From: an uncultured Bacteroidales bacterium
GTDB taxonomy: Bacteria > Bacteroidota > Bacteroidia > Bacteroidales > Paludibacteraceae
Length of the DNA: 39,727 nt
Reading direction: 5' to 3'
Assembly (NCBI GenBank): GCA_900321005.1
Contig: ONUF01000016.1
Location: 1-39,727 of the forward strand
In this document: positions 637 to 39,727 of the stretch, one piece after another
How positions within the stretch are numbered: position 1 is the first letter of the stretch
Layout of the letters: each line of letters begins with the position of its first letter
The notes under the pieces: model-generated
What the model was told of the DNA's origin: nothing
The model's input: only the letters and a program-made list of their open reading frames with translations
Databases searched by the model: none
Translations under genes and position numbers: made by a program

Positions 637-1974
637 TTATGCTATTTTCCCCTTTAACGTAGCTGCTGAGGCCTCAACAATAGTTACTTGGACAAGATCG
701 CCGATCTTCTGATTGGTGCGCGGGAAGACTACCGTCTTGTACTGCTCGGTGCGGCCGAACATATCATCATGGCTGCGTTTGGAGAAGCCCTCCACCAGCA
801 CCTCGACGGTCTTGCCTATCTCGCGTTGGTTGGACTCCAGCGACAGCTGGTTCTGCAGCGCGATGATCTCGTTGAGACGTCTTACTTTCTCTTCCTCGGA
901 GATATTATCGGGCAGGTGCTTCTGCGCGTACGTACCCGGTCGCTCGGAGTACTTGAACATAAAGGCGGAGTCAAAACCCACCTCACGCATGAGGCTCAAG
1001 GTCTGAGCATGATCCTCCAGCGTCTCGTCATGGAAGCCGCAGAAGATATCTGTACTGATAGCCGCGGTAGGCAGGATACGACGAATGGCGGCGATACGCT
1101 CCAGATACCACTCGCGCGTATATTTGCGGTTCATCAACTTAAGAATATGATTCGATCCGGACTGCACCGCCAGATGGATGAACTTACAGAGGTTCTTATG
1201 GCGGCTAATGGCCTCTAAGGTCTTGTCACTCATGTCCTTCGGATGACTCGTTGTGAAGCGGATACGCATGTCCGGAACAGCGTCCGCGACAATCTCTAAC
1301 AGGTCCGCAAAATCCACCACCGAACCATCTTCGCGTACGTACTTATACGAGTTGACGTTCTGACCTAACAATGTCACCTCTTTATATCCGCGCGCTTGCA
1401 GATCGCGCACCTCGTTGAGGATAGACTCCACGTCACGACTGCGCTCGCGTCCACGGGTATAAGGTACCACACAATAGGAGCAGAAGTTATTACATCCGCG
1501 CATGATGGACACGAAGCCGCTGATAGACCGACCGATACGGGCCGGTATGATCTGTCGATAGGTCTCGGTGGTACTCAGTTCTACATTCATCGCTTTATGG
1601 CCTTGCTCGCACTGCGCAAGCAAGTTCGGAATATCGAGGTAGGCATCAGGACCCGCCACGAAGTCCACACCGAAGTCTTGAATCAACTCCTGGCCCATGC
1701 GCTCAGCCATGCAACCGATGACGCCGATGATCTTGTCCCGATTATCAATGTTCGATTTGCGATTATGGAGGTGGGCTTTGAGTTCGCGGAGGCGAGCTTC
1801 GACTTTCTGCTCGGCATTATCGCGGATGGAGCAGGTGTTGAGAAGGAGGATATCCGCCTCTTCCCAGCGCTCCGTCAGAACGGCATCCGTGGTCTGCATA
1901 ATCGCCGCCACGACCTCACTGTCCGCCACGTTCATTTGGCAGCCATAGGTCTCTATGTAGAATTTTTTTGTCAT
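637..1974 (-). CDS. miaB: tRNA-2-methylthio-N6-dimethylallyladenosine synthase MiaB
   Basis: MiaB is a radical-SAM methylthiotransferase that adds the 2-methylthio group to isopentenyl-A37 of tRNAs reading UNN codons. The 445-aa protein shows the full layout: an N-terminal UPF0004 domain with the three cluster cysteines (C12 in YGCQMN, C48 in LLNTCSIRD, C88 in GVIGCMAER), the radical-SAM motif CNNFCSYC (C161, C165, C168) followed by VPYTRGRERSR, the HLAVQSGS segment, and a C-terminal TRAM-like RNA-binding region. I chose ATG at 1974, giving MTKKFYIETYGCQMN; an in-frame TTG at 1983 is less likely. Residues ~69-80 (HNRKSNIDNRD) are an extra loop before IIGVIGC, encoded by a heptamer repeat at 1739-1766. 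It is divergent from the tRNA-Pro gene. No clear promoter of its own is visible. Confidence 0.95.
   Translation of the reverse strand: MTKKFYIETYGCQMNVADSEVVAAIMQTTDAVLTERWEEADILLLNTCSIRDNAEQKVEARLRELKAHLHNRKSNIDNRDKIIGVIGCMAERMGQELIQDFGVDFVAGPDAYLDIPNLLAQCEQGHKAMNVELSTTETYRQIIPARIGRSISGFVSIMRGCNNFCSYCVVPYTRGRERSRDVESILNEVRDLQARGYKEVTLLGQNVNSYKYVREDGSVVDFADLLEIVADAVPDMRIRFTTSHPKDMSDKTLEAISRHKNLCKFIHLAVQSGSNHILKLMNRKYTREWYLERIAAIRRILPTAAISTDIFCGFHDETLEDHAQTLSLMREVGFDSAFMFKYSERPGTYAQKHLPDNISEEEKVRRLNEIIALQNQLSLESNQREIGKTVEVLVEGFSKRSHDDMFGRTEQYKTVVFPRTNQKIGDLVQVTIVEASAATLKGKIA
1739..1766. repeat. Heptamer tandem repeat inside miaB (4 units)
   Basis: Four in-phase 7-bp units on the plus strand: CGATTAT, CAATGTT, CGATTTG, CGATTAT. 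They encode an extra loop (NRKSNIDNR) in MiaB just before the third cluster cysteine. Confidence 0.7.
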
Positions 1975-1998
1975 TTTCGTCAAAAAAAGCGCAATAAA

Positions 1999-2030
1999 TT
2001 TGCGTATATCATTTTTTTGTAGTAATTTTG
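1999..2030 (+). promoter_or_regulatory. Promoter of the tRNA-Pro gene
   Basis: TTTG (1999-2002), 20 nt, TAATTTTG (2023-2030) is an exact match to the Bacteroidota promoter pattern. The predicted start lies about 14 nt before the tRNA. A small hairpin (CGCTTT TGAA AAAGCG, 2035-2050) fills the leader. Confidence 0.75.
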
Positions 2031-2050
2031 CACCCGCTTTTGAAAAAGCG

Positions 2051-2124
2051 CGGGAAGTGGCGCAGCCCGGTAGCGCAACGGTCTGGGGGACCGGAGGTCG
2101 CGTGTTCGAATCACGTCTTCCCGA
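2051..2124 (+). tRNA. tRNA-Pro (anticodon GGG)
   Basis: A 74-nt cloverleaf: acceptor arm CGGGAAG/CTTCCCG (2051-2057 with 2117-2123), discriminator A2124, a D arm with GCGC/GCGC, an anticodon arm ACGGT/ACCGG (one mismatch at the top) with loop CTGGGGG giving anticodon GGG, and a T arm GCGTG-TTCGAAT-CACGT. The 3' CCA is not encoded. The anticodon decodes CCC and CCU. The gene has its own promoter and a strong terminator, so it is a monocistronic unit between the divergent miaB and the convergent porW-like gene. Confidence 0.95.
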
Positions 2125-2128
2125 CAGA

Positions 2129-2155
2129 GAACAGTTTCGACTGTTCTTTTTTTTT
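2129..2155 (+). terminator. Intrinsic terminator of tRNA-Pro
   Basis: A perfect 7-bp stem GAACAGT/ACTGTTC capped by a TTCG tetraloop, followed by nine T (2147-2155). The last two T of the tract are part of the stop codon (minus-strand TAA, 2156-2154) of the convergent porW-like gene. Confidence 0.9.
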
Positions 2156-4748
2156 ATTTAACCAGCGGGAGGTTCACTTCGGCGAGGGCTTGGATCACGA
2201 CGCCGACGAGGACGGGTTGCATATCGGTACTCTTTTGGATCATATCGACCCACCACTCCGCTTCGTCCATATCGGCGAATCCGCTCACGCGCAATGCGCA
2301 TCCTTCACCCAGTACCGGCATCTTCTGCAGGTCGAAATCACGAATGAGGAACTGCGAGAAGTTAAAGAGCGCCACCTGGTAGAGCAACTCATTGAGTGTT
2401 TCTTCGTCCGGTTTGGGCAAGCGCAAGAGCACGATGCTCGGTTGCTTGCGGTCTTCGCTCCACTGCTGTTCTTGCGCTTCCTCCTCCTGCGTCTCTTCCT
2501 CTATCTGTCCACGGCGGTCAGCCAACGAACCGGTGGATCCACCGGTCTGACTCTCCATACCCTGCCCCATCATCGCGAGCATGTCCTTCGCCATCGATCC
2601 TAATTCGGTCGTCGGATAGCGGTTGACGAGTTCCTTCAGTTCGGCTACAAAAGCCGTCTGTCCTTCGGTACGCGCCACCGAGACGGCGTTCAAGAAGAGG
2701 AAGCGGGGAGCAAGTGACCATTGGCCACTTGTGATTTGCGATTGGTGATTGGTGATTGTTGATTTTACCTCCGCATAGCGACCATGCTTATACGCATCGT
2801 AGACAGCGGCATAGAGCGAGTCCTGCTCGGCAAGCATCCGACGCATCTGCGCGATATATGCTTCGTCATGGCGCAAGGCGCGTAACCGGAGGTCTTCGAA
2901 GATGCCATCCAGCGAGGGGTGTCCTGTGAAGCGCTCTATGAGTTCGTGCAGCGTCTCTTCGGCCAGGAACTCCTCCTCCACCTTGTCGCGGTAGATATAA
3001 TAGAGCGCGATCATCGCTTCGCGCCACAGGCTGTCGCTCGCAGCGAAGTCTTGCGGCGTACGCGGTATCTGCTGGAGGTAATATTCGGGTTTGTGATTGT
3101 CGGTCTCAATGGGTGCGGGCCGCGGGATGGAATCCTGCGCCAGATTGAGGGTATCCGTGCCTTCGGCCATCATCTCTTCGGGGAAGGCGGACACGACTTG
3201 TTTGTTCTGCCGGCGCCAGTTATCTTCGAGCGGACGGTTGCCCCAGCGGCGACGCCACTCCTGCTGTCCGGTTCGTATCAGTTGCGGGTTATAGAAATAC
3301 CACTCGGCTTTCTGCGGTCCGCCGCCACCTAACATATTGGCGGTATTGACGCTGCGCGGTCCGCCGTTTTTTCTACCGGTCGCCACATCGCGCGCTTCCT
3401 GCGCCTGCTTGATAGAGTCCGCTTTCTCGGCTTCTATGAGGTCGGCAATGATCTTATCAACAATAGCGCGCTGCTCTTCTTCGGTCTTATGACTGAGAGC
3501 TTGCAACGAGTCCTGCAATTGGGCTTGGTTATACGCCAGCACCAGTTCGTCGAGCACTTCCGAGCGCTTCTGGATACGCGCATAATCGGGGTGCTCCATC
3601 GAGAGAATCGTTGCCGCTTCGCGGTAGCACGGTTGCGCCTTATCGTACGCGCGTTTCTCGTAATAGATATCGCCTGCGCGCACGAGTACCGCTGCCTTGG
3701 CCATACCGGCCTGGGTAGCTTCTTCGATGGCTTTCTCGTACATCTCCAGCGCCGCCGCCGTATCGTGCTGCGCCAAATAGATATTTCCCATCGAGCCGTA
3801 GAGTTGATCCAGACGGTCCTGATACTTGGACTGCTTGGTCATGGTGCGCAGTTTGCGGATGGCGTTCTTGCCGCCTAACTCCGCCATGCGTACACGCGCA
3901 TTGAAGTCCATCTCCGTAGGAGGTGCCAGACGCACAACGGTCTTATACGCATCGATGGCCTCGGATTTGTTGCCCTCCAACTCATACAACTGACCCAAGA
4001 CGTACGCAAAGCGAGGACGGTATATCTTACGCTTCTCGTAAGGGATAGCGATCTTGACGAAGGGTATGGCCTCATGATAATGTTCGCCCTTGAGCAGCAC
4101 ATCGGCTTTGACGGCCGAATAGAGGCGCGCGTGCTTCTTGGTGAGCGCATCGATATTGACGCGCTGCAGCATATCTTCTGCCTCGTACTGCCAGTCCATC
4201 TCAGCGTACGCACGCGCGATCCATAACTGGCATTGCGCGATCATGTCGGCATCGTTGGAGTAATGGTTGATAATATAGTTAAACGTACTGACAGCCCCGA
4301 GGAAGTCGCCTTTATGGAACTCCGCCTCGCCCAGACGAATCCACGCCAGTCCCATGTTGGCATTGAACTCTTCGGACTTGAGCCACAGTTTATATTTCGG
4401 ATCGTTCGCCTTTTTCGGGTCACGTTTCGGTTTTGCTTTGATAGAATGCAGCTTGATGCACTTACGGCACTTGTCGATGGTCTTATCCATCTGTGAAGCA
4501 CTGGCTTCCGCTGCTTTGTGGTTGGAAACAGGATAGAGGTTTAGGATTTGGGTATAGTCATCGGTATTGGCATCGCGTATGGCCTTCAGACCTTCATCGT
4601 ACGCGAGGTTACCGTTATAGAGGATGTTATATTTGACTTTCGTCTGATGGAACGACCGCGTCGCCCATGTATTTTTCTGGGTAGAGCATGAAGAAAGCAG
4701 CACGACCAGTGCTGAAATCCAAAATACTATGTGCTTCCCTCTAATCAT
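2154..4748 (-). CDS. porW: PorW/SprE-like TPR lipoprotein of the type IX secretion system
   Basis: An 864-aa lipoprotein. The signal peptide ends in the lipobox LLSSC (Cys21), followed by STQKNTWATRSFHQ and YNILYNGNLAYDEGL, the N-terminal signature of SprE (Flavobacterium) and PorW (Porphyromonas), outer-membrane-anchored T9SS components needed for cargo secretion and gliding. Several TPR-like helical repeats follow (for example GLAWIRLGEAEFHKGDFLGAVSTF, split here only for length, and the region near residues 250-380). A long charged/Gln-rich linker and a C-terminal helical domain come next. ATG at 4748 is used; it sits inside a heptamer repeat that also contains the tsaB stop. A Thr/Asn/Gln-rich stretch near residues 661-672 is encoded by a heptamer repeat at 2731-2765. 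It is the last gene of its operon, convergent with tRNA-Pro. Its presence fits the secreted-protein genes around it. Confidence 0.82.
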   Translation of the reverse strand: MIRGKHIVFWISALVVLLSSCSTQKNTWATRSFHQTKVKYNILYNGNLAYDEGLKAIRDANTDDYTQILNLYPVSNHKAAEASASQMDKTIDKCRKCIKLHSIKAKPKRDPKKANDPKYKLWLKSEEFNANMGLAWIRLGEAEFHKGDFLGAVSTFNYIINHYSNDADMIAQCQLWIARAYAEMDWQYEAEDMLQRVNIDALTKKHARLYSAVKADVLLKGEHYHEAIPFVKIAIPYEKRKIYRPRFAYVLGQLYELEGNKSEAIDAYKTVVRLAPPTEMDFNARVRMAELGGKNAIRKLRTMTKQSKYQDRLDQLYGSMGNIYLAQHDTAAALEMYEKAIEEATQAGMAKAAVLVRAGDIYYEKRAYDKAQPCYREAATILSMEHPDYARIQKRSEVLDELVLAYNQAQLQDSLQALSHKTEEEQRAIVDKIIADLIEAEKADSIKQAQEARDVATGRKNGGPRSVNTANMLGGGGPQKAEWYFYNPQLIRTGQQEWRRRWGNRPLEDNWRRQNKQVVSAFPEEMMAEGTDTLNLAQDSIPRPAPIETDNHKPEYYLQQIPRTPQDFAASDSLWREAMIALYYIYRDKVEEEFLAEETLHELIERFTGHPSLDGIFEDLRLRALRHDEAYIAQMRRMLAEQDSLYAAVYDAYKHGRYAEVKSTITNHQSQITSGQWSLAPRFLFLNAVSVARTEGQTAFVAELKELVNRYPTTELGSMAKDMLAMMGQGMESQTGGSTGSLADRRGQIEEETQEEEAQEQQWSEDRKQPSIVLLRLPKPDEETLNELLYQVALFNFSQFLIRDFDLQKMPVLGEGCALRVSGFADMDEAEWWVDMIQKSTDMQPVLVGVVIQALAEVNLPLVK
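2731..2765. repeat. Heptamer tandem repeat inside porW (5 units)
   Basis: Five in-phase 7-bp units on the plus strand: GTGATTT, GCGATTG, GTGATTG, GTGATTG, TTGATTT. They are read in frame as STITNHQSQIT in the PorW-like protein. Confidence 0.75.
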
Positions 4749-4766
4749 TACACATTACACATTACA
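4746..4766. repeat. Heptamer tandem repeat at the tsaB-porW junction (3 units)
   Basis: Three perfect copies of CATTACA (minus strand TGTAATG). Each minus-strand unit contains an overlapping TAATG. The first unit carries the tsaB stop codon and the last carries the porW start codon. Confidence 0.8.
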
Positions 4767-5454
4767 CGAGTCCTTTCACGTGACTCTGCGCGGCAATAAA
4801 TTCTTTCAAGTAGAAAGGTTCGTAATAGGCCAAATCTACCGATTTGGCATTGGTGATTTTTGATTGATGATTGATGATTTGCTCCGCTAACGCACCCATG
4901 TACTGCGCTTCGGGAACAATATCGGGGATATAGTGCCAATTGGGTTTGGTAAAGATCAGTGCACATTTGGCTGCTCCGTCGCCGAAGTAATAGACGTCTT
5001 CGTCTCCCTCGTACAGGCTGGCTTCATTCTCCACGACCACGGCTTTGGTCTCGCCATTGATCACCGTATAGACTTCCATTCGCCTTGCATCCAGCAAGGG
5101 AATGAGGATGGATGATGGCTGATTGATGATTGATGATTGCTGTCTTGCTGACTCTTTAAGCACCTCCAAAGTAGGGATGGGGATGAGGGGGATATTGAGT
5201 CCGTAGCACAGCCCTTTGGCGGTACTGGTTCCGATACGCAGGCCGGTATAGCTACCCGGTCCTTCGGACAGCGCTACCGCCTCTATAGAGAGGTCATGCT
5301 CCCGCGCGAACGAGAGCAATTCCTCTATATAGCGAGGTAGCAACCGGGCATGGTTGCTACCTTCACGGCATATACATTGGTTCATCGGCACGCCATCCTT
5401 GCAGATGGCGGCCGAACAAACCGATGTACTAGTTTCGATACATAGTATCGTCAT
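4762..5454 (-). CDS. tsaB: tRNA threonylcarbamoyladenosine biosynthesis protein TsaB
   Basis: A 230-aa ASKHA-fold protein that partners TsaD and TsaE in placing threonylcarbamoyl on A37 of ANN-decoding tRNAs. Visible family features: N-terminal MTILCIETSTSVCSAAI, then SNHARLLPRYIEELL, ALSEGPGSYTGLRIG, STAKGLCYGLNIPL and LLDARRMEVYT. The start at 5454 gives the canonical MTILCIETS; an upstream GTG/ATG extension is out of family. The gene begins 7 nt after the barrel-protein stop and ends 13 nt before porW, so it is in the same operon. Two segments absent from typical TsaB (QSSIINQPSS before the LLDAR motif and INHQSKITN near the C-terminus) are encoded by heptamer repeats at 5103-5144 and 4852-4879. 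Confidence 0.93.
   Translation of the reverse strand: MTILCIETSTSVCSAAICKDGVPMNQCICREGSNHARLLPRYIEELLSFAREHDLSIEAVALSEGPGSYTGLRIGTSTAKGLCYGLNIPLIPIPTLEVLKESARQQSSIINQPSSILIPLLDARRMEVYTVINGETKAVVVENEASLYEGDEDVYYFGDGAAKCALIFTKPNWHYIPDIVPEAQYMGALAEQIINHQSKITNAKSVDLAYYEPFYLKEFIAAQSHVKGLV
4852..4879. repeat. Heptamer tandem repeat inside tsaB, C-terminal (4 units)
   Basis: In-phase 7-bp units on the plus strand: GGTGATT, TTTGATT, GATGATT, GATGATT. They encode INHQSKIT in TsaB. Confidence 0.75.
5103..5144. repeat. Heptamer tandem repeat inside tsaB, middle (5-6 units)
   Basis: In-phase 7-bp units on the plus strand: TGAGGAT, GGATGAT, GGCTGAT, TGATGAT, TGATGAT, TGCTGTC. They encode QQSSIINQPSSIL just before the LLDAR motif of TsaB. 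Confidence 0.75.
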
Positions 5455-5461
5455 AAGCGTA

Positions 5462-6874
5462 TTAGAACAACTTATCCTCGCGAACTGCAGCTTTCTTCTT
5501 CGGCCAGTTGAAGTGGTAAGCCAACTTGATACCGGCGTCAAAGAAACCAACACGGCCTGCATAGGTGTCCGTAGCGGAGTGCACATCCAATTTAGCTACG
5601 CTACCGGAACCTGCGTTGCTCGGCGGGTTAGCGATATCCACCAAGGAAGCATACTTAGACGCATTCAGCACCGGACGGGAGTTATATACGCAGTAGTCTG
5701 CATATACACCCAGACCCAGCGAGTTACCGCTCTTAAGGAGCCACTCGTAACCGAGTTCTGCGGTCAGCATGATGTTGATCTTCATTTGCAGGTTATTGCC
5801 CTCCGTCGAAGCCTCACCGTTGTATTTACCGGTAACAGCATCGTCAATAAACGTTACACCGGTCAAATCGCTATACGCGGAGATGTGGGTGTTTGCTTGG
5901 TCAATAGTCTGCTTGAACGGAGTATATACCGGCAACATGAAGCGCGGACCTACGTTGAAGAAGAAACCGCAATCATGGATCAAGGAGAACATCAACGGGA
6001 TCTCGAGTTGAACCTGGTGGTCCACTTCTTTGATCTTCGGAGAAACCACGGTGTAGTCCAAGTCACCTCTTCTGAAGGAGTTGTTCACATTACCTACGAA
6101 GCTACCTTGTGCATAACCTACGCTCAGGCCTACGATAAGACCGAGGTCAACCGTGCGACCGTCTTTTGCCCAATAGTGAGCATACTGGAGATCGAGCAAT
6201 GCGTCGCCGCCGATACCCCACTTCGCATCAGAACCGGCTACGGCCTTGTGCAATTGGGAAGATACACCGCCGCGAACACCGATAGTGAAGCGGTGATAGT
6301 TATGCTTGAAGTTCTGCTGCGAGTGAATCGAGTCACCCTTAGCAGCCTCATGCTTAACGGTATCTGCAGGAACAACGGGCGCTGCCGGCTGCGGCTCTTC
6401 AGCCTTAGCCTCTTCTTCCTTAGCGGGCTCTGCAGGTTTTGCAGGTTCAGCTTTCTTAGCCTCTTCAGCCTTCTTAGCTTGCTCTGCAGCAGCGTTCGGG
6501 TTTTTGCCTTCCTTCACTGCCTGCTCGTAAGCCTTCTTCTGACCGGCTTGCTCTTTCTTAGCTTGCTCTGCTTTCTCTTCTGCATTGCCGTTTACCGGGA
6601 TCAAGCAGTCCTCGCACATCCACGAATAGATGTTCATCAACAGAACACCATCAGCGAAGCGCTTGGTACCTAACTGACGTACTGTATGTACTTTATCCCA
6701 TACCCAAACAGAAGGTGTCTCACCCGTGCAGTACTTTTGGCACTCACGCTTAATCATTACGGAGTCGCCGATTGCCACCTTAAACTCATGTTTCGGAGCT
6801 TGTGCTTCTTGAGCCGATACGGCCGTTGCACAAATCAGGGTGGCTGCAATTAAAATTGATTTAATAGTTTTCAT
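5462..6874 (-). CDS. Outer-membrane beta-barrel protein with N-terminal SH3-like domain
   Basis: A 470-aa protein with a signal peptide (MKTIKSILIAATLICATAVS-AQ). Residues ~30-95 (VAIGDSVMIKRECQKYCTGE, then WVWDKVHTVRQLG and DGVLLMNIYSW) resemble bacterial SH3-type cell-wall-binding domains of the 'GDxVxIK...YxTGxxxxxWV...HTV' pattern. They carry four cysteines (C45, C49, C87, C90). Residues ~97-180 form a charged EAK/PAP-rich linker, and ~190-470 are alternating beta strands of an outer-membrane barrel ending with a charged tail (EDKLF). The simplest reading is a barrel tethered to peptidoglycan from the periplasmic side; this is inference. It starts 17 nt after the 1694-aa gene behind an AGGAGG sequence and is followed by tsaB. 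I do not recognise a named family for the whole protein. Confidence 0.75.
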   Translation of the reverse strand: MKTIKSILIAATLICATAVSAQEAQAPKHEFKVAIGDSVMIKRECQKYCTGETPSVWVWDKVHTVRQLGTKRFADGVLLMNIYSWMCEDCLIPVNGNAEEKAEQAKKEQAGQKKAYEQAVKEGKNPNAAAEQAKKAEEAKKAEPAKPAEPAKEEEAKAEEPQPAAPVVPADTVKHEAAKGDSIHSQQNFKHNYHRFTIGVRGGVSSQLHKAVAGSDAKWGIGGDALLDLQYAHYWAKDGRTVDLGLIVGLSVGYAQGSFVGNVNNSFRRGDLDYTVVSPKIKEVDHQVQLEIPLMFSLIHDCGFFFNVGPRFMLPVYTPFKQTIDQANTHISAYSDLTGVTFIDDAVTGKYNGEASTEGNNLQMKINIMLTAELGYEWLLKSGNSLGLGVYADYCVYNSRPVLNASKYASLVDIANPPSNAGSGSVAKLDVHSATDTYAGRVGFFDAGIKLAYHFNWPKKKAAVREDKLF

Positions 6875-6887
6875 AGAGCTACCTCCT
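6875..6887 (-). promoter_or_regulatory. Strong Shine-Dalgarno before the barrel gene
   Basis: AGGAGG (6887-6882) lies 7 nt before ATG 6874, just after the stop of the 1694-aa gene. Such strong sites are uncommon in Bacteroidota. The spacing equals that before the two small peptides at 16603 and 27052. Confidence 0.6.
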
Positions 6888-6891
6888 ATTC

Positions 6892-11976: not shown

Positions 11977-12030
11977 GTGATTGATTGTTGTTAGTTAATA
12001 AATAGAGTTAATTAGTTGTTATTATTGAAT

Positions 12031-13326: not shown

Positions 13327-13333
13327 CGTTCGA

Positions 13334-14512
13334 TTAGTGTATTCTGGTTCCTAAAACATCGTATTTCGCACCGCCACGGATGATCACCACGCGGCCATTC
13401 TCGATTCGTTTGCTCGATACCGTTTCCGTCGATACCTCGTCGATATCGGTGGGGAATTCGGTATTATACATCTGCCCGCAGAGGAAGTATATCTGTACCG
13501 CCACTTGACCGGCAGCAACCCATTGCGGCTCGTTCGTTACCGTCAGCGGCACATACTTGCCTTTCCCGTCGTACATCACGCTCCAGCGGATGGAGCTAAT
13601 CGGCGTCAGTTCGCCGCTGTAGTGCGCATGGAGATTCTCCTCCGCACGGTGCAAATCCAGCAATGTACGGTCATGCTCTCTCTCTACAATCACACCCTCC
13701 ATATAATCCCAGTCTGCCGGCGACTCGAAGATGTAAGGACGATAGCGAAGAGTGATGCCGCCCGCCATCGGCTCGTCATGCTCGGTATTGAATCCGCTGC
13801 AGAAATAAGCCGTTTGGTATGTGCCGCAATTATGCTCTATCGTAAGATACAGTGTCACAATCGAGTCACAACCTGCCGCATTGGTCAGCGTATATGTCGG
13901 CGCTGCGCTTTCCGTATAGGTAGTACCGTGCCATACGAACGATTCGCATGCCGTGGCCGTCGTATCGCCCTTCGTTGCCTGATGAATCGTCAGATGCAGC
14001 GTCACGATCGAGTCACAACCGGCCGCATTGGTGAGCGTATAGGTCGGCGCAGCGCTCTCCGTATAGGTGGTACCGTGCCATACAAACGATTCGCATGCCG
14101 TAGCCGTCGTGTCGCCGGTCGTCGGCGTACACATATGCGGAACGGCCAGGATAGTAGCATCTTCGTGCGACTTGATCTCCACGATCTTAGTGCCCTCGCC
14201 TTTCTCTATCGACCATAGCCATGTCATACTGCACTCGGCAAAGGCCAACTCCGCCTCAATCGTGTCACCCGTCGCCAAGGCTGTCGGTATCGTACCGAAC
14301 GGCGCAGAGGGGATATAGGTCACCACCGCCGGCAGGCGCTCCTCGTCGAAACGGATATAATTGCTTCCGCTCTGAACCGTCAGCATCGTCGGCTCGGTGA
14401 TGGGATTCGCCTTATCCGCCGTGATGCCGGCAGGCACCAACTGCTGCGCACAAAGCATACTCGACACAACGAGCAGCAAGCCAATCACGATATGTGTACG
14501 TATATTACGCAT
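13334..14512 (-). CDS. Secreted protein with two near-identical 49-residue repeats and short C-terminal tail (392 aa)
   Basis: First gene of the operon: its ATG at 14512 lies about 14 nt after the predicted transcription start. A GTG at 14518 gives two extra residues but is less likely. A signal peptide (MRNIRTHIVIGLLLVVSSMLC-AQQ) and a beta-rich domain precede two tandem 49-aa units beginning GDTTATACESFVWHGTTYTE and ending GCDSIVTL(H/Y)LTI. This Cys-pair 'CDSIVTL' unit is common in secreted Bacteroidota proteins. A further beta domain follows. The last residues (SKRIENGRVVIIRGGAKYD, then VLGTRIH) are the tail shared by several proteins in this window. Role unknown. Confidence 0.7.
   Translation of the reverse strand: MRNIRTHIVIGLLLVVSSMLCAQQLVPAGITADKANPITEPTMLTVQSGSNYIRFDEERLPAVVTYIPSAPFGTIPTALATGDTIEAELAFAECSMTWLWSIEKGEGTKIVEIKSHEDATILAVPHMCTPTTGDTTATACESFVWHGTTYTESAAPTYTLTNAAGCDSIVTLHLTIHQATKGDTTATACESFVWHGTTYTESAAPTYTLTNAAGCDSIVTLYLTIEHNCGTYQTAYFCSGFNTEHDEPMAGGITLRYRPYIFESPADWDYMEGVIVEREHDRTLLDLHRAEENLHAHYSGELTPISSIRWSVMYDGKGKYVPLTVTNEPQWVAAGQVAVQIYFLCGQMYNTEFPTDIDEVSTETVSSKRIENGRVVIIRGGAKYDVLGTRIH
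13838..14116 (-). repeat. 147-bp tandem repeat (two copies) encoding the 49-aa units
   Basis: Two adjacent copies, offset by 147 bp, differ at only a modest number of mostly synonymous positions. The second copy lacks the last five residues of the unit (HQATK replaced by EHNCG). This suggests a recent in-frame duplication. Confidence 0.9.
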
Positions 14513-14532
14513 ATACACGGAAATTCAGGGCG

Positions 14533-26699: not shown

Positions 26700-26708
26700 G
26701 CAAATAAG

Positions 26709-26856: not shown

Positions 26857-26862
26857 GCAGTC

Positions 26863-26894
26863 GTTAACTCGCTAATTACTTAACTCATTAACTC
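26863..26894. repeat. Octamer tandem repeat between peptide gene and terminator (4 units)
   Basis: In-phase 8-bp units on the plus strand: GTTAACTC, GCTAATTA, CTTAACTC, ATTAACTC. It is the only clear 8-bp member of the short-period repeats in the window. Confidence 0.6.
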
Positions 26895-26899
26895 TTTCA

Positions 26900-33187: not shown

Positions 33188-33213
33188 ATTTTTTTGTTTT
33201 TAAAAATGTTTGC

Positions 33214-33489: not shown

Positions 33490-33727
33490 AGCCTTGTCTT
33501 TTAAGGAAAGCCGTTACATCCTCCCCAGGAAGCATTCGATAAGTTGGTCCTTGCTCTGCACGATCCAGCATGGCGAAATATTCTTCCTTCGTCATACACG
33601 TTGGATCTTTCTCCACTTGTTTTACCAAGCGGCGGATATACTTAGCAGCTTTATTAAGCATAGACTCATGCTCCGACAAGACTGCCAGATTCTGATAGAT
33701 GTCTGCATTTAATTGTAACGCTGTCAT
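33479..33727 (-). CDS. Antitoxin partner of the YoeB-like toxin (82 aa)
   Basis: ATG at 33727 (MTALQLNADIYQNLAVLSEH) to the stop at 33479. The frame can be extended upstream to 33901, but that extension runs through the promoter and is not credible. The N-terminal half is a short strand plus helices (NKAAKYIRRLVKQVEK) and the C-terminal half (MTKEEYFAMLDRAEQG, LPGEDVTAFLKRQGYDI) would be the toxin-wrapping part. It does not look like classical YefM/Phd in sequence but fits the small antitoxins paired with YoeB/RelE toxins in Bacteroidales. Assignment rests mainly on its position and the overlap with the toxin. Autoregulation at the upstream hairpin is plausible. Confidence 0.7.
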   Translation of the reverse strand: MTALQLNADIYQNLAVLSEHESMLNKAAKYIRRLVKQVEKDPTCMTKEEYFAMLDRAEQGPTYRMLPGEDVTAFLKRQGYDI

Positions 33728-33761
33728 ATTTTTGTCCCTTTCGTTTGTTTCAACTATTGCT

Positions 33762-33780
33762 TTCTCTCTCACGTATATGC
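33762..33780 (-). promoter_or_regulatory. Leader motif shared with the 3340-aa adhesin leader
   Basis: Minus strand GCATATACGTGAGAGAGAA, ~35 nt before the antitoxin ATG; compare 26699-26679. Confidence 0.5.
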
Positions 33781-33795
33781 GGGCATTGCGCACAT

Positions 33796-33816
33796 GCGCC
33801 GACCAAAAAGCGGCGC
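33796..33816 (-). promoter_or_regulatory. Start-site hairpin/possible operator of the antitoxin promoter
   Basis: 6-bp GC-only inverted repeat GCGCCG/CGGCGC (33796-33801 with 33811-33816) overlapping the -7 end. A second symmetric word (GCGCACATGCGC, 33788-33799) lies next to it. Likely autoregulatory site or 5' hairpin. Confidence 0.5.
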
Positions 33817-33847
33817 AAAGGTACTGCTTTTTTTCGACATACGCAAA
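33816..33847 (-). promoter_or_regulatory. Promoter of the antitoxin-toxin-adhesin transcript
   Basis: Minus strand TTTG (33847-33844), 20 nt, TACCTTTG (33823-33816). Predicted start about 33809, ~80 nt before the antitoxin ATG. Confidence 0.72.
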
Positions 33848-33904
33848 ATTTTTATGTATAAATCGCAAAAATAATACCAAAATGCAATTTTTACTTAACA
33901 AAAC

Positions 33905-33916
33905 GCACGTACGTGC
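33905..33916. repeat. Perfect 12-bp palindrome GCACGTACGTGC
   Basis: Lies between the 1449-aa gene stop and the antitoxin promoter, flanked by A- and T-rich runs. It could be a weak terminator or a protein-binding site; the core resembles the ACGTGAG leader motif nearby. Confidence 0.4.
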
Positions 33917-33963
33917 TAATTTTCGTGGATTAGTACTGCCCGGACGAAGTTGCCGGTCAACAT

Positions 33964-36900
33964 TTACTTAATGAGGTTACCCATGGCGTCGTACAGGTGG
34001 CCGTTGGTACGGATATACAGTTTGTCGCAGATGAGCAGTTTTTGTGCTTGCACTTTTCCTTGCGTGGAGGCATCGGAGACAGGGTCGATATCCAAGGTGC
34101 TTGGCGGAATCGTAAAGCGGCCCCGGAGGAAGAGTCGTCCGCGGGTAGTGCCCTCGTCGGTGTCGAAAGTATAATCCGAATCGAACAGGTCGGTCTCAGA
34201 GCCCGTCTGCATATCAATCAGCCACACTTCCTCCAGGCGGTCGAGCCACTCGTTGTCGCACAGCGAGACGGTTAGAGACTGCGATTTCGGGCTATAGAGG
34301 GTGAGCGCTATACCTTGGTCAAGCCGTACATCGGACACGCCGGCAAAGGCCATGTCTCCATACTCGAGCGAACTATACAGCAAGGGGCGCGAAGCCTCGA
34401 GCGACTGCTTGGCGACATCGATACCCGTTTGGTAGGTCTGTGTATAACGCGTGGGATGGCTATAGACCGTCGTTTGGTCGATGGCGCCATCGGCATCCGT
34501 GATATCGAGACGGAGCCACTGAACCGATTGATCCACGAGGGCTTGGTCTTCAAAGGACAGATAGCCGTTATCTGCCGCCTGGTAAGCAAAGGGCTTTGCG
34601 GGCGGGATGGAGGTAGGCATCTCTTGGTAGAACGAGCCATCCGGCTGCATCCAGGCCACAACTATACCCTCCGGCGCGGGCGTATGGGTATAAGTATGGG
34701 TGAAAGGCGAGACGAGCAGGTTCCATCCGGCTTCCGTCGGTTCGCCGTCGCTATGCGTTACCGCCACTCGGTTCGTTAGTTGAGACAGGTCAATCGGGAA
34801 ATAGAACTCCCGGTAGTAGTCCACACCCGAAAACATCTCGTATCCCACCCCGCCGGCGATGGTACCTACTGTCGGCAGCGTCTCCCAGTTATAGCCGGCT
34901 GCGCCATTCACGGCACGGCTGCTCTCGCTGTAGGAGCGGAGTACCCAACCGCTTCCGGAGAGATAGTTAATCGGAGCTCCGTTGGATAAGCCGACGGTGC
35001 TCAGTTCGCAGTTCACGGGAAGGCCGAAGGGGAAGTAAGCGTCCTTGGAGGTAATGATACGCGTGTAATACACGGGACCGGCGACAGCGCCGGCATTCTC
35101 CAGCTCGGCTGCGTGCTCGGGGTTCGTTCGTAAGACGAGTGCTTCCGCAGTCAGTTTGTTGCCGCTATTGACCACTATCTTCGCATCCGGCGCGACATAG
35201 ATCTTCTGCGTAGAGATATTACCGTCCACCGTGAGCGTTGCGCGTTTGACAAAGAGCGGTCGGTGTTGATCCGTAGTGATGGTGGTATCGGAAGTGATCT
35301 CCTGCGGGATGACATAGGTATGATGACTGGCGACGGCGCCGTCTGTGCGGTACTTTTGGACCAGTATATAGGCGGTGTCGCCCGGTTCGCCGGTATAAGC
35401 GATTTTCATCGTCTGGTCAGCCGCACGCGCCGTCTGAGCATATGCCGTCTTGTTCACATGATAAGGCCAGCCGGCTAAGTCCCAATGGGACACATTGAGC
35501 GTGAGGGTATGATTCGTATTATCGACATCGACGATGTCGGCGCGGAAGCCCTTTTCCGACAGTTCTTCCACTTTCCATTTATACTCCGCTCCGTAGGCCG
35601 ATCGTTCGGCATTTGTAGTCGGGAAAGAGTAATACGGCGGGGCAAAGAAGTGCTCGATTTGATGGCGAAAAGTCTCGTCGGACAGTTCGTTAAAATATCC
35701 TCCGCGCAGCGCGATCGTAGCGTCGTCGGCGCGATAGGCTATTTGTCCTTTTACGGCAGAGAAGCGTCCACCTTGAACGTCTATCGTTCCACCCGGCTCT
35801 GCGCGCAGCGCTTGCGTTTCGTAAGTTGCATCGGTAGCAGAGATCTTTGGGGCGCCCGTGACGGTGATTTTTCCTCCTGAAGCAGCCGTAAGCCCGAAGG
35901 CATATCTTCCCGTACTGGAAGCTTCTACCTCTCCGCCGGAAACGGTTACCAAGGATGCCGCTTGATCCGACATATTTTTCGCGAGCACGGCATAGGTACT
36001 GCTCGCAGAAGCCGCTTGGATCTTACCGCCTTTTATCTCCATGACGGCATCGTTCGTTCCGTTTGCTACCACCTGGACGGTGTACATCCCGGTGGATGTA
36101 TTCTCGCTAAACAGCGTTCCGCTTTCCAGGATGGCTTTACCCTTCCGGAGCACCAGCAAATAGCCATATCTCGACGAACCGGTGATTCCGAAGAGTCCAC
36201 CTGTTCCGCTGTCTTTGATGGTTAAGGTCGTATTATCCTTATCCACGACGCAGAACGTGGTAATCAGGTCTTTTACTACGAGGGAATGGCCGTTGAGATC
36301 GAAGGTAGTGACCGCATTGTCGGGCGCGGCGTTGTAATTTAAGGTCTCGCCGATATAGTCTATATCAGAAAGGAGTGTGATTGTTGCCTTCGGGTGTTTC
36401 TGCGCTTGGCTGAATGCGCGAGCGAAAGAGGAATAGAAGCGCTCCGTTGAACCGGTGGTCACTTTCGCCACTCCGGGTCCGGGAGCTACGGTATAGCGAT
36501 AGCCTTCGGCATACTCGGGATCGGCTTCCGTCAGCGGGATGACACAACAATCATCGTTCGCATGGGTAGCCAATTGGCTATAATTGACATAGTATCCTCC
36601 GGCAAGGTATGCCAACTCGAGGGGGGAGATGATGTTTCTTCCGTTAGGCGTATTCTCGGTTTCCGTACCCGTTAAGGCGCGAATTTTGCCGTCATAAACG
36701 ATTATTTTTGCCTCTGCCGTACCATACGCACCTGTCTTCGTGTCATCTTGGCGGAAGATATAAGCATAGTTTTCATGGGGATGAATGGACGTGAACTGCC
36801 CGTTATGGATGGTTACCGTAGCCTGCATGGCATAACCGGCAGCTCCGTTATCGGACTCAGCGGATAAACCTCCGGATGCCCATGCCGCGATACTATTGCC

Positions 36901-38313
36901 GTCAATAGAGTCACTGACGACATTAAACGTTCCGCCGAAGATCTCTATTTCGGCTTTGTTTTTCGATGCGTCCGCGTCGCAATAGTGCTCGTGGTTCCAA
37001 GGACCGGCTATTACTCCTCGGGGACTATACGCACCATAGATATTAAAGGTCGGATTACCGGTTACGGTTACTTTATTCCGGTAGCATCCGATACCGGTTG
37101 CTCCCTTATACTGATAAATAGTAAATGTACCGCCGCTTATATCGAGTTTTCCCCAGTTGCGCAGTAAGTCGATATTACTCTCATTGGGCACGTAGTTTCC
37201 TTCGTCATCGCGCGTATCGACGAGAAAAGTGCCGCCGGAAATAGTCATTTCGCTCAGGCTCTCTTCGAGTAGATGGTGGGGTGTCTGATCATCAAAGAGA
37301 CGTGACCCGTTGGAAACGGCTGCAAAGATCTGGCGGGCAGAAGGGTCGGATGCGCGCGCCGTGAAGGTCCCCCCGCTGATATGCATCTTACCGCGCGCTT
37401 TCACGATGCGGTCGCCGAATTTCTTTATGTCGGCTTCCGTCCGCACTACACATACGTTGTTCGTCTCTGTTTCAGCAAGGAAAGTACCGCCGGAGATATA
37501 CACTTCTCCGCTATATACCACATCCTCCGTAGTACCAATCCAGCCCGTTGCCGCCACGGTATAGGAGGAAAGAGCCGTTCCTACTGCAAAGGCTTCCAAT
37601 GTGCCTCCGTAAATATAAGCTATCCCCCGTTGCTGGGAAAGCGCACGCGCGTTCTTATACTTGGTTACGGTAGCGCGCATATGTCCTCCGGTGATATAGA
37701 GCGAACTATAACTGGAGATAGCATAGGCTGTCATTGTAGCGACCGACTCCACCATTCCGCCGGTTACGCGTATAACGGCATCCGGACTGGAAGTGCTATT
37801 CAAGGCTACCGCCGGATGCCAATTATCTTCATCGGGATCATCGATGGTGTTCTCGCAGTAGAGCTTGCCTCCGGCCATCTCCAGTTCGCCTTGATAGACA
37901 GCGACCGTATAGATATTGACATCGCTCTCCATCCGCTTATAGAGGCATCCTCCTTGCGTAGCAGAATGATCGGTGATGGTCAGTTTGGCATCCGCTTTGT
38001 TGACCACCAGCAAGCGGTCCGAGGTATTGTCTGTGATGGTGTGATTGTTCAGGTCAAAGATATGGCGAGCATCCGCCGCAGCAGGGCGACAGTTGATTGT
38101 CTGCGTACGGGTGATATCGGCAAGCAAGGTGATTGTTGCTTCCTGCTGCGTCATCGCGAAAGCCCATCCTGTATCGAAATCGGCAAACTCTATCGGGTCG
38201 GCAGCATCCACCTGCACGCTAAGCACGTTCTGCGCGTGAGCGGCCGCCCATCCAAACAGGCAACATACAGCAGTCAGGATAGCGAAAATATGCCGATGCC
38301 CGACCTGAACCAT
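33964..38313 (-). CDS. Large secreted beta-helix surface protein with short C-terminal tail (1449 aa)
   Basis: A signal peptide (hydrophobic core IFAILTAVCCLFGWAAAHA) is followed by two right-handed beta-helix regions. The first (~30-640) opens with ITLLADITRTQTINC and FDLNNHTIT; the second (~655-960) with ITLLSDIDYIGETLNY and FDLNGHSLV. Both carry repeated ISGGTF/GGKL/GGTLEA turns. A C-terminal domain (YYTRIITSKDAYFPFGLPVN, GVGYEMFSG) parallels the FGVPW domain of the two adhesins. There are no InlB repeats. The last residues (QKLLICDKLYIRTNGHLYD, then AMGNLIK) are the shared tail. Its ATG overlaps the stop of the preceding gene (TAATG). Probably a surface or exported protein; no substrate or partner can be named. 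Confidence 0.78.
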   Translation of the reverse strand: MVQVGHRHIFAILTAVCCLFGWAAAHAQNVLSVQVDAADPIEFADFDTGWAFAMTQQEATITLLADITRTQTINCRPAAADARHIFDLNNHTITDNTSDRLLVVNKADAKLTITDHSATQGGCLYKRMESDVNIYTVAVYQGELEMAGGKLYCENTIDDPDEDNWHPAVALNSTSSPDAVIRVTGGMVESVATMTAYAISSYSSLYITGGHMRATVTKYKNARALSQQRGIAYIYGGTLEAFAVGTALSSYTVAATGWIGTTEDVVYSGEVYISGGTFLAETETNNVCVVRTEADIKKFGDRIVKARGKMHISGGTFTARASDPSARQIFAAVSNGSRLFDDQTPHHLLEESLSEMTISGGTFLVDTRDDEGNYVPNESNIDLLRNWGKLDISGGTFTIYQYKGATGIGCYRNKVTVTGNPTFNIYGAYSPRGVIAGPWNHEHYCDADASKNKAEIEIFGGTFNVVSDSIDGNSIAAWASGGLSAESDNGAAGYAMQATVTIHNGQFTSIHPHENYAYIFRQDDTKTGAYGTAEAKIIVYDGKIRALTGTETENTPNGRNIISPLELAYLAGGYYVNYSQLATHANDDCCVIPLTEADPEYAEGYRYTVAPGPGVAKVTTGSTERFYSSFARAFSQAQKHPKATITLLSDIDYIGETLNYNAAPDNAVTTFDLNGHSLVVKDLITTFCVVDKDNTTLTIKDSGTGGLFGITGSSRYGYLLVLRKGKAILESGTLFSENTSTGMYTVQVVANGTNDAVMEIKGGKIQAASASSTYAVLAKNMSDQAASLVTVSGGEVEASSTGRYAFGLTAASGGKITVTGAPKISATDATYETQALRAEPGGTIDVQGGRFSAVKGQIAYRADDATIALRGGYFNELSDETFRHQIEHFFAPPYYSFPTTNAERSAYGAEYKWKVEELSEKGFRADIVDVDNTNHTLTLNVSHWDLAGWPYHVNKTAYAQTARAADQTMKIAYTGEPGDTAYILVQKYRTDGAVASHHTYVIPQEITSDTTITTDQHRPLFVKRATLTVDGNISTQKIYVAPDAKIVVNSGNKLTAEALVLRTNPEHAAELENAGAVAGPVYYTRIITSKDAYFPFGLPVNCELSTVGLSNGAPINYLSGSGWVLRSYSESSRAVNGAAGYNWETLPTVGTIAGGVGYEMFSGVDYYREFYFPIDLSQLTNRVAVTHSDGEPTEAGWNLLVSPFTHTYTHTPAPEGIVVAWMQPDGSFYQEMPTSIPPAKPFAYQAADNGYLSFEDQALVDQSVQWLRLDITDADGAIDQTTVYSHPTRYTQTYQTGIDVAKQSLEASRPLLYSSLEYGDMAFAGVSDVRLDQGIALTLYSPKSQSLTVSLCDNEWLDRLEEVWLIDMQTGSETDLFDSDYTFDTDEGTTRGRLFLRGRFTIPPSTLDIDPVSDASTQGKVQAQKLLICDKLYIRTNGHLYDAMGNLIK

Positions 38314-38750
38314 TATTCTTTATTATCAGTCCATCCTGCTTTCCGAATGATTACTTTTTTCGTTACGCCATATGCCATGGAGAGGAGGATGAACAGGAGC
38401 CACGGGGTGTCGCCGAGGGGTTGCTGTTCGCCTTCTTCCTCCTCATCGTCACCCGGCGTACCGGGGTTACCTGCACGTCTGGGACCTATGTTCGCACGGC
38501 CAATGCCATATGCCTCCGCGTTCACGGTACCATCCTCGTTGAGTACAGACTGCTGTTCATCTTGGTTCCACTGCACCGAATAGGCACTCGTAGATTGAAA
38601 AGCCACCGATGGTGCTTCTATCCCTTGTACATTGTACATTGTTCTTTGTACTTTGTACTGGTTCTTGTATTCGACAGCTGTTGCCTGCATGGCGCCCAAG
38701 AGCACCAGCAGAACAACTATCCATATATTTCGCAACATATTCATTCTCAT
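38313..38750 (-). CDS. Small envelope protein with C-terminal membrane helix (~145 aa)
   Basis: From the ATG at 38750 (MRMNMLRNIWIVVLLVLLGA) there is a signal peptide, then APSVAFQSTSAYSVQW, a Gly/Pro/Glu-rich spacer and PLGDTPWLLFILLSMAYGV, a C-terminal transmembrane segment followed by a basic tail. An in-frame ATG at 38777 would add nine residues. The FQSTSAYS...LNEDGT...PLGD...LL.L..AYG layout is one I associate with short Bacteroidales envelope proteins located beside large surface proteins, but it has no function that I know. Residues following VEYKNQ (YKVQRTMYNVQG) are encoded by the heptamer repeat at 38624-38658. Its stop overlaps the start of the 1449-aa gene by one base, so the two are coupled. 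Confidence 0.68.
   Translation of the reverse strand: MRMNMLRNIWIVVLLVLLGAMQATAVEYKNQYKVQRTMYNVQGIEAPSVAFQSTSAYSVQWNQDEQQSVLNEDGTVNAEAYGIGRANIGPRRAGNPGTPGDDEEEEGEQQPLGDTPWLLFILLSMAYGVTKKVIIRKAGWTDNKE
38624..38658. repeat. Heptamer tandem repeat inside the small envelope protein gene (5 units)
   Basis: In-phase 7-bp units on the plus strand: CTTGTAC, ATTGTAC, ATTGTTC, TTTGTAC, TTTGTAC. They encode YKVQRTMYNVQ in the mature N-terminus. Confidence 0.75.
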
Positions 38751-38767
38751 AATGTTTCTACTTAAAT

Positions 38768-38795
38768 CATTCAACATTCAAAATTAAACATTACT
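38768..38795. repeat. Heptamer tandem repeat at the gene boundary (4 units)
   Basis: In-phase 7-bp units on the plus strand: CATTCAA, CATTCAA, AATTAAA, CATTACT. They span the stop codon of the right-edge gene and the start region of the next. Confidence 0.7.
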
Positions 38796-39727
38796 TAACT
38801 GCTTTTCCTGTTGCGTCAAAGAGTTTGCCGTCAACCATGATAAACATCTTGTCCTCAATAATCAGCTTGCGAGCCTTCGTACCTTGTACATCGTCACTTT
38901 GTACATTTCCGCCTCCTGTCGCAATCTGCGGACTCTTGCGGGTGATGATAAAGCGATCGTGCTTCTCGTTATCGTTGGTCATGAACCAATAGATACCGCC
39001 TGTTTCTATCCGTGTGTAGATATTGGCTTCAATATCGTACAGATAGATAGCTTCATCGCTATTGAGGTAATCGAAGTACATCGTGTAGTTGTTGTCTTCG
39101 CCGGCGCGGAAGCCGATTACTGTTCCTTCCAACTCAGGTATAGCGGAAACGCTGTTCTCCGTTCCTTCGCTGTCGGTGGTGTAGAGATAGAGGGCAGACT
39201 CATTGCCGTCCCATTTGTCGCCGTCCCATCCGTTATCGAAGCCTGTTGAGAAATCTTCGCGCTCTAACAACAACAGTTTGTCATCATAGTTCTCACCGCT
39301 CACTTTGATCTTCAATACCACCGGTTCTTCTGCTTGCGCATGTTTGGGAGCATGCAGCGCATCACCGATAATCGAACCACGTGTTGTACTGCGAACGTGA
39401 CGCTCGTAGTTGAGATGCAACGTACCTTCGTTCGATTTATCCGTATTCTTCACGAAGAATCCTTGCATGGAGTTGATGTGGTCATCGCCGTCTTTATAAG
39501 GAGCCGCGTGAATAGGAACGGTCACATAGGTTCCACCGGCATACCGTGCTTCGGCTTCGGAGCCTGATCCTGTCTTATCCACACCGGTGTTGAAGAAGTA
39601 GATATTAGCTAACAGGCCTTCCAAATCATCAGTTGTCAAGGCATTGATGTCAATCGGCGCCGTCCAGCTGTTGCCTACCACCATGTTCTCGTCAGCAGGC
39701 ACGGTTATATCCTTCGTGGTGGTCGGA
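38791..39727 (-). CDS. Large surface protein, C-terminal part (5' end beyond window)
   Basis: The frame is open to the right edge (PTTTKDITVPADENMVVGNS and on); the GTG at 39702 is internal, not a start. The visible ~312 residues hold a beta-sandwich region (LKIKVSGENYDDKLLLLERE, YTMYFDYLNSDEAIYLYDIE) and end in the shared tail ARKLIIEDKMFIMVDGKLFD-ATGKAVK. The region matches in kind the C-terminal part of the 3340- and 2040-aa adhesins, so the missing part is probably a large repeat protein. It ends near the small envelope protein gene, in the same direction. The GNVQSDDVQGTK stretch just before the tail is encoded by a heptamer-type repeat. Confidence 0.75.
   Translation of the reverse strand, partial: PTTTKDITVPADENMVVGNSWTAPIDINALTTDDLEGLLANIYFFNTGVDKTGSGSEAEARYAGGTYVTVPIHAAPYKDGDDHINSMQGFFVKNTDKSNEGTLHLNYERHVRSTTRGSIIGDALHAPKHAQAEEPVVLKIKVSGENYDDKLLLLEREDFSTGFDNGWDGDKWDGNESALYLYTTDSEGTENSVSAIPELEGTVIGFRAGEDNNYTMYFDYLNSDEAIYLYDIEANIYTRIETGGIYWFMTNDNEKHDRFIITRKSPQIATGGGNVQSDDVQGTKARKLIIEDKMFIMVDGKLFDATGKAVK
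38876..38904. repeat. Heptamer tandem repeat before the C-terminal tail (4 units, one slipped)
   Basis: Plus-strand units TTCGTAC, CTTGTAC, ATCGTCAC (one base longer), TTTGTAC. They are the same GTAC-type word family as 38624-38658 and encode NVQSDDVQGTK. Confidence 0.6.

Follow-up and report, generated by a model that had tools for sequence, protein, structure and literature searches.

Introduction

Long simple sequence repeats of heptanucleotides were reportedly described in prokaryotes by Mrazek in 2007. The contingency repeats behind phase variation are short tandem repeats, for example the heptamers in Haemophilus promoters, and the palindromic elements of Rickettsia insert in frame within genes. 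Here we analyse tandem arrays of 7-bp units in a contig of 39,727 nucleotides from an uncultured Bacteroidales bacterium of the Paludibacteraceae (ONUF01000016.1, assembly GCA_900321005.1; the whole stretch is called the window), in the rest of its genome and in relatives from its genus, for which 178 species genomes were available. The arrays proved to be a genome-wide feature, often placed inside conserved genes, where their unit sequence (the word), length and presence change from species to species.

Many prokaryotes are known to have an excess of heptamers, for which there is no explanation (PMC4679880, PMC4692102 and the SPADE survey, PMC6344855), and the over-representation of long simple sequence repeats with heptanucleotide units has been described for intergenic DNA (PMC4679880, PMC4692102). 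Direct repeats of TAACTGA are reported from Beggiatoaceae, Cyanobacteria and some Bacteroidetes, with two sets listed for Paludibacter propionicigenes; the forward unit gives stops in all frames and copies within open reading frames (ORFs) are read in reverse, and close Cyanothece strains differ mostly by 7-nt steps (PMC4679880). The GGGNATC repeats of Xanthomonas and Nostoc show a preference for four units (PMC4692102), and Geobacter metallireducens carries a four-unit GGGACCG and a five-unit MTYCTGA tandem heptamer, the former also within genes (PMC2700814). A tree-of-life survey reports that short tandem repeats are dense in Bacteroidota, both genome-wide and in genes, and that bacteria on average are not enriched in them; its text does not use the word heptanucleotide (PMC12699852). 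An earlier note on the window, made from its letters alone, had known of no description for Bacteroidales, a view that is not quite accurate given the TAACTGA sets of Paludibacter propionicigenes (PMC4679880). Our full-text literature search returned no description of heptamer tandem repeats in Bacteroidales, gave PMC4679880 alone for heptanucleotide tandem repeats in Bacteroidetes, and had the Geobacter work among its matches for in-frame heptanucleotide tandem repeats in bacteria.

Results

Heptamer arrays exceed chance in the genome and vary in density across the genus

Self-similarity at a lag of seven bases was scored with +1 for a match and -2 for a mismatch. The window is contig C12 of a 54-contig, 2.12-Mb assembly, and in 366,668 bp from the other contigs 54 segments reached a score of at least 12, as opposed to 0 in one Markov-5 shuffle; among the other lags, multiples of 7 excepted, lag 11 gave 11 segments and the rest 0-4. 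In 386,520 nt of ORFs 35 lag-7 segments were found, and 0 remained after one codon shuffle and 0 after one synonymous shuffle that kept the protein. These are hence tandem 7-bp units beyond chance, with period 7 exceeding other periods, and the claim of the earlier note passed the codon-preserving shuffle that it had itself named as a refuting test. Within the window, six segments scored at least 10, compared with a mean of 0.06 in 100 Markov-3 shuffles. The earlier note had listed ten sites, seven of them as perfectly in phase; six are clear arrays (scores 17, 15, 13, 17, 19 and 10), while those beginning at 294, 1739, 26863 and 38876 do not rise above chance on their own.

Array density reached 35 per 100 kb in G034 and G015 and 22 in G035 and G030, was 14.5 in the window's genome and lower in many others, and was zero in the stretches sampled from ten further species within the genus and from four genomes of other families; as 16-49 kb were sampled per relative, compared with 406 kb for the window's genome, the position of each relative is approximate. 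Across 80 named loci (1.42 Mb), whose titles are nearly all Bacteroidota (L200 is titled Bifidobacterium), lag 7 was the top short period with 62 segments, lags 8 and 9 giving 22 and 17, and the three counts were 49, 19 and 17 without the seven loci treated as genus members (73 loci, 1.28 Mb). Because lag 7 leads beyond the genus too, the genus seems to amplify a tendency found more widely. A locus titled Paludibacteraceae from roe deer cecum (L189) is dense, with 14 heptamer arrays in 20.7 kb.

Arrays lie largely inside genes and peak at four to five units

We placed 169 arrays from 16 genomes (992 kb) relative to ORFs of at least 100 aa, and 96 lay wholly within ORFs, 51 across an ORF edge and 22 between ORFs. 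The coding counts are lower bounds, since the greedy ORF caller classed the window's two TsaB arrays as intergenic, an error that seems to stem from an overlap of slightly more than 15% between the TsaB ORF and its neighbour. The arrays are thus not mainly intergenic, and with over half of them wholly inside ORFs they are not a class sited just upstream of start codons (distances to starts were not measured). By the same caller ORFs cover about 94% of the sampled bases, and per base the spacers are still enriched in arrays. Among the 96 coding arrays the unit was free of stops on the sense strand in 77 and on the antisense strand in 33, and the open reading in all three frames claimed earlier was borne out.

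Array GC content was 32%, compared with about 50% for the window's genome. At the loosest threshold the lengths of 217 arrays peaked at 28-34 bp, that is four to five units (95 arrays), with 40 at 14-20, 22 at 21-24 and 22 at 25-27 bp below the peak and 21 at 35-38 bp and 17 above 38 bp beyond it; the Markov control yielded 10 arrays, all of 16-23 bp. The 74 arrays of the window's genome comprised 46 different canonical words, 35 of which were seen once, so that no single defined heptamer marks a family as in the TAACTGA or short tandemly repeated repetitive (STRR) type, and the shared pattern is only degenerate.

Whole tracts differ between orthologues while the frame is kept

In TsaB, aligned from hits in 39 of 41 genomes after four truncated rows (G032, G035, G014 and G011) were dropped, the same positions hold arrays with different words in many species. 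The MiaB loop has equal length in nine of 18 distinct genomes; six of these loops score as heptamer arrays, with five words, and three score none. Three genomes, G002, G026 and G035 (L074, L060 and L063), carry in this loop a longer GC-rich repeat with a unit of about GACCGCTTCGCTGTAA (15-16 bp). The in-frame extra segments that the earlier note had described in TsaB, MiaB and PorW were upheld.

Usable orthologues for a comparison of lengths existed at 66 of 166 sites. Whole-tract differences amounted to 30 bp at L021:748 compared with two relatives, to 36 bp, in frame, in G015 compared with G030 and G032, and to 35 bp at an ORF edge. Differences at ORF edges included 30 and 33 bp. In coding pairs, where the count also takes in indels beside the array, the length difference was a multiple of 3 in 287 of 305 pairs, among them every one of the 90 with an array on either side; the 18 deviating pairs all came from six sites called coding. 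The difference was zero in 63 of these pairs, and 37 of the 242 non-zero differences were multiples of 21. A pure slippage ladder of 7n steps within genes was rejected, as the coding differences take many multiples of 3.

Closely related genomes were compared at the level of species. Between G098 and G143 (97.2% identical), four of seven array sites differed by 0-1 bases, and the other three in 7 of 26 columns at equal length, 19 of 44 and 27 of 52, the last with an array in one genome only. Between G164 and G188, five of seven sites differed by 0-2 bases and one by 3, and at the seventh period 7 changes to period 8, with flanks 13% diverged. Hence word, length and presence vary at some array sites between 97%-identical genomes. 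Both G188 and G194 have an 8-bp array (GAGATCAC) where G164 carries a 7-bp array. Separately, a heptamer array in G098 (L250:767-792), shared with its G143 orthologue, lies at a synteny break, its left and right flanks mapping to separate contigs in relatives such as G000.

The unit of an array fitted the array-free orthologous sequence slightly better than did the genome's other units (5.89 vs 5.60 of 9; p=0.003, 53 sites), and the same held when only the nearest relative was used (5.72 vs 5.48, p=0.016).

Alleles of one site in 70 species

One site was followed in a gene with class-I tRNA synthetase, anticodon-binding and DUF5915 domains, which on our reading of these domains encodes isoleucyl-tRNA synthetase (IleRS). 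We surveyed 70 of 175 matching species, consisting of the 30 best loci and 40 further down the list, mostly in order. The site, in the DUF5915 part, has a 33-bp non-repetitive form in 17 species (ADGQFTLLDYT in 11), a 39-bp class with several words, some without an array, in 20, a 45-bp class built on CTTTCAA or CTTTCGA in 23, a hairpin-like insert in five, longer mosaics in four and an unusable segment in one (G004). The peptide NYQLSTVNYQ is encoded in G158 and G112, and AFDFRLSTFDYT in G076, with a lag-7 score of 0 in each; we interpret such repeat-free versions of the peptide as the outcome of synonymous decay. At 22 of the 23 45-bp sites (G076 was dropped for lack of a lag-7 score) the four letters at unit position 6 were AAAA in 11, GGGG in nine and mixed in two. 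In the reading frame they occupy codon positions 1, 2, 3 and 1, and protein selection is therefore an improbable cause of their likeness. A purely concerted change from CTTTCAA to CTTTCGA was not proven, because the linked flanks fit two origins with recombination as well.

On a tree of the neighbouring IleRS sequence, 13 labels (one of them the unusable G004) required 34 changes, with a minimum of 12 and 46.9 for shuffled labels, and sister pairs of different form, G075/G018 and G072/G034, were well supported in a bootstrap that had not settled. Near flanks of species sharing a form were closer than the rest of the gene predicts, with a residual difference of 0.053 that none of 500 label permutations, made without regard to kinship, reached. 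Together, the label changes and the likeness of the flanks point to alleles exchanged between species by recombination.

The hairpin-like insert (L323, L324 and L342 of G077, G171 and G035; L329 and L355 of G104 and G015) is GC-rich, about 30 bp long and of the form CTCCC...GGGAG, and it occupies, in frame, the place taken by heptamer arrays in other species; when the sample of the window's own genome was searched with a loose version of its pattern, no match was obtained. Repeats of 11 bp, of the type CCGACGGTCAA, occur in the same protein loops as heptamer arrays, at the IleRS locus L295 and its relatives (near L295:1863) and in G000 at L013:7013-7045 and L017:11269-11313.

A degenerate motif runs through the words

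Alignment of the words over rotation and strand produced one circular pattern, about N-T-G-A-W-W-K (TGAWWKN). The earlier note had seen one period with several sequences; the specificity for the period holds genome-wide, but the words are related through this pattern. Its log-likelihood was 120, compared with 31-46 for composition-matched genomic words and 47-68 for matched words that were also stop-free on one strand (10 sets each). These nulls do not copy the kinship of orthologous arrays, from which the test on the window's genome alone is free, and there the value was 83.6 against null maxima of 42.1 and 57.7 (20 sets each). The motif also cross-validated relative to composition-matched words, from the window's genome to other genomes and in both directions between coding and non-coding arrays, the non-coding set including a few coding arrays through the mislabelling by the ORF caller.

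A universal bacterial heptamer motif was rejected: in 63 arrays from outside the genus (loci L145-L218, excluding L149, whose contig is that of G024) the genus motif, at -0.15, was not clearly above matched words, at -0.28 with a standard deviation of 0.125. A separate pattern was present in these 63 arrays (log-likelihood 46.7, null 17-31). When published heptamer words were scored on the genus motif, six of the seven tried were not significant singly; 4% of matched words scored as well as the Nostoc-type word GGGGACT, and TAACTGA did not score above matched words. In arrays with a clear strand, the TGA strand opposed the gene by 54:19 in coding arrays and agreed with it by 25:10 in co-directional spacers. 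A strand or replication bias of the motif was rejected, as selection on stop codons together with ORF calling can account for both ratios.

The arrays of the window

All features of the window given here lie on the reverse strand unless stated otherwise, and the gene names proposed earlier agree with curated models. MiaB (tRNA methylthiotransferase; 637..1983) matches TIGR01574 with 479.9 bits (cut-off 355.3), PorW/SprE (type IX secretion lipoprotein; 2154..4748) matches NF052312 with 577.3 bits (cut-off 250), and TsaB (4762..5454) matches TIGR03725 with 132.4 bits (cut-off 69.3). To judge from the alignment, TsaB likely starts at the methionine of the conserved MTILCIETS rather than at the first ATG of the ORF at 5586.

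An array of TTGTGAT TTGCGAT TGGTGAT TGGTGAT TGTTGAT T (2729..2764; score 17) lies in frame in PorW/SprE, reads ..STITNHQSQITSG.. in the sense peptide and has 12 other similar places in the genome. A perfect threefold CATTACA (4746..4767; score 15) spans the TsaB stop and the nominal PorW start, and a relative (L140 of G188) has another word of equal length there. Two arrays are in frame in TsaB, TGATTTT TGATTGA TGATTGA TGATT near the C-terminus (4854..4879; score 13), a site that is also heptameric, with other words, in many relatives, and GATGGAT GATGGCT GATTGAT GATTGAT GATTG further inside (5107..5139; score 17). The highest score, 19, belongs to two TTGTACA, one TTGTTCT and two TTGTACT units (38625..38659) in frame in an ORF of 154 aa, with the sense peptide ..NQYKVQRTMYNVQ..; this ORF gave no Pfam match at 0.001 and no NCBIfam match at 0.01. 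The array CATTCAA CATTCAA AATTAAA CATTA (38768..38793; no strand assigned; score 10) lies at the junction of ORFs ending at 38777 and 38791.

The degenerate CGATTAT CAATGTT CGATTTG CGATTAT in the MiaB loop (1739..1766; lag-7 identity 0.62) is not above chance alone, and is still counted because the same loop is a heptamer array in relatives. Taken alone, 294-324 and 38876-38904 (lag-7 identity 0.50 each) and the period-8 site 26863-26894 (best score 7) are not above chance. Elsewhere in the window, 13839-14116 holds a 147-bp tandem duplication (1.9 copies, 90% match) within the ORF 13334-14518.

Discussion

We favour, with a probability of roughly 0.45, a reading of the arrays as products of a neutral copying error that proceeds in 7-nt steps and yields a tract of about 30 bp (four to five units). 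It is based on the strict period of 7, the length peak at 28-34 bp and the whole-tract differences, as well as on other words at equal length and place, the kept frame and the peptide that occurs with and without the repeat. The tract would arise by insertion or by replacement with a tract of similar length, possibly through a few repeats of a 7-nt primer-template slip or template switch while gaps or ends are being filled. Nearby sequence may partly seed the tract, with AT-rich, TGAWWKN-like units favoured, and selection would then weed out frame breaks and sense-strand stops, so that tolerant loops and spacers keep their tracts. Recombination between species could hand on finished alleles, and point mutation would eventually wipe out the repeat and leave the new peptide. 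The repeat itself would need no function. Of the two origins suggested in the earlier note, copying in 7-nt steps is the one we prefer to a non-autonomous mobile element.

Several observations weigh against such a copying error. At the site of the 36-bp difference a form without the repeat, intermediate in length, is present in most other genomes, and insertion and deletion consequently look alike there, as at most sites. Outside ORFs, 21 of 55 length differences were multiples of 7, where about 8 are expected, and change by unit steps does therefore happen. The flanks of the three strongly changed sites of G098 and G143 were 4.0, 4.5 and 8.5% diverged, compared with 0.5-1.5% elsewhere, so that imported alleles could account for these bursts. 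The local-seed signal is small and could be a trace of older arrays that have decayed. The transposase and reverse-transcriptase families searched yielded no maker gene, and no array event was seen within a strain. Moreover, words were shared (at most one mismatch, arrays not within 5 kb) more often within a genome than between genomes (12.3% vs 7.5%), which fits dispersal equally well. The excess of 7n differences in spacers and the diverged flanks lowered our probability to the value given above and raised that of ordinary replication slippage.

By ordinary slippage, a chance duplication of 7 bp would gain and lose single units, 7 nt being the length of DNA held by the polymerase, and frame-neutral outcomes would be kept. 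Published work has suggested slippage for the heptamer excess, in the sections consulted (PMC4679880, PMC4692102), and it accounts for the period, for the multiples of 7 in spacers and, mildly, for the local seed. It leaves the length peak with its short tail unexplained, though, and is difficult to reconcile with the low share of multiples of 21 among coding differences (neighbouring indels being counted as well) and with the ORF-edge differences of 30 and 33 bp, and lone steps of +7 or -7 would break the frame of TsaB and IleRS. We consider it possible but rather unlikely. Copying of tracts between places, by gene conversion or RNA- or DNA-templated insertion with words drifting as within-genome families, would explain both the higher word sharing within genomes, which extends beyond 5 kb, and a motif common to sites and species, but most words of the window's genome occur once, and supported sister species carry different words at one site. 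The alignments examined, in which no systematic search for such features was made, drew attention to neither conserved ends nor terminal repeats or target duplications. The transposase of repetitive extragenic palindromic (REP) type (PF01797) had no match in G034, G015 and G001 and weak partial matches (21-26 bits) in G035, G030, G022, G018 and G000, so that array-rich genomes do not share a matching transposase, whether of the REP-associated (RAYT) or transposon-borne kind. Likewise, reverse transcriptase (PF00078), which retroelement-made repeats would call for, was lacking in G034, G035, G022 and G001 and present in G000, G015, G018 and G030, and also in G012 and G008, both with 0 arrays in the sampled stretches. 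Both enzymes were rejected as makers, as neither was associated with array density by inspection (no formal test was made), and we regard dispersal as unlikely.

A role of the arrays in which selection maintains them as serial targets of a protein that binds DNA or RNA would suit the phase-locked TGAWWKN in coding and non-coding arrays and the preferred array size, and intergenic TAACTGA arrays of a Beggiatoaceae genome are, in the sections consulted, mostly just upstream of starts (PMC4679880). Among species the same site has an array, none or a replacement, and G158, G112 and G076 keep the peptide without the repeat, both of which speak against selection for the repeat and make this role improbable. 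An artefact of metagenome assembly, or chance, might be invoked as the genus is represented among named records by metagenome assemblies, but the arrays, at 16-67 bp, are shorter than usual sequencing reads, recur in assemblies of different projects (L139-L142), keep the frame of essential genes and vanish or nearly vanish in shuffles, and we give this explanation almost no credence. A bolder form of the preferred copying error may be imagined, though we would not expect it to hold: a genus-specific enzyme, for instance a gap-filling or end-joining polymerase recopying a 7-nt template, could write the tracts of about 30 bp, with TGAWWKN as its imprint and the tracts as a lasting source of in-frame peptide in essential proteins, recombining between species.

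Since the arrays lie inside conserved genes, alignment and frame allow gain, replacement and decay to be traced and counted, and the genus thereby makes the seven-base periodicity of bacterial DNA, so far unexplained, amenable to testing. The length peak and the hidden TGAWWKN are concrete clues not predicted by a model of open-ended slippage, and the peak is near the four-unit preference in Xanthomonas and Nostoc and the four and five units in Geobacter. Our results also suggest that essential enzymes acquire new peptide from short repeats.

The arrays resemble the heptanucleotide repeats of other prokaryotes in that 7-bp units exceed other periods, are scattered over the genome and have no known function, but they differ in that over half are in genes, with many words per genome, a hidden motif and visible turnover. 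With TAACTGA repeats they share the heptamer and a low copy number, whereas TAACTGA is a single word placed mostly just upstream of starts in its main genome. The preferred number of four (or five) units is common to the arrays and the heptamers of Xanthomonas, Nostoc and Geobacter; GGGNATC and the four-unit Geobacter element are G-rich, in contrast to the AT-rich arrays described here. Palindromic elements are present in Rickettsia (PMC2694212). Like them, the arrays are short repeats that add peptide within coding genes without destroying the protein, but those elements form palindromic families, while the arrays are tandem and of many words. Phase-variation repeats can likewise have 7-bp tandem units; here housekeeping genes are concerned, on/off switching is not apparent and the frame is conserved, the multiples of 3 among coding length differences speaking against frame switching. 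In conclusion, heptamer repeats as such are known from prokaryotes, and what is new in this genus is their presence in gene interiors, their hidden motif and their visible turnover.

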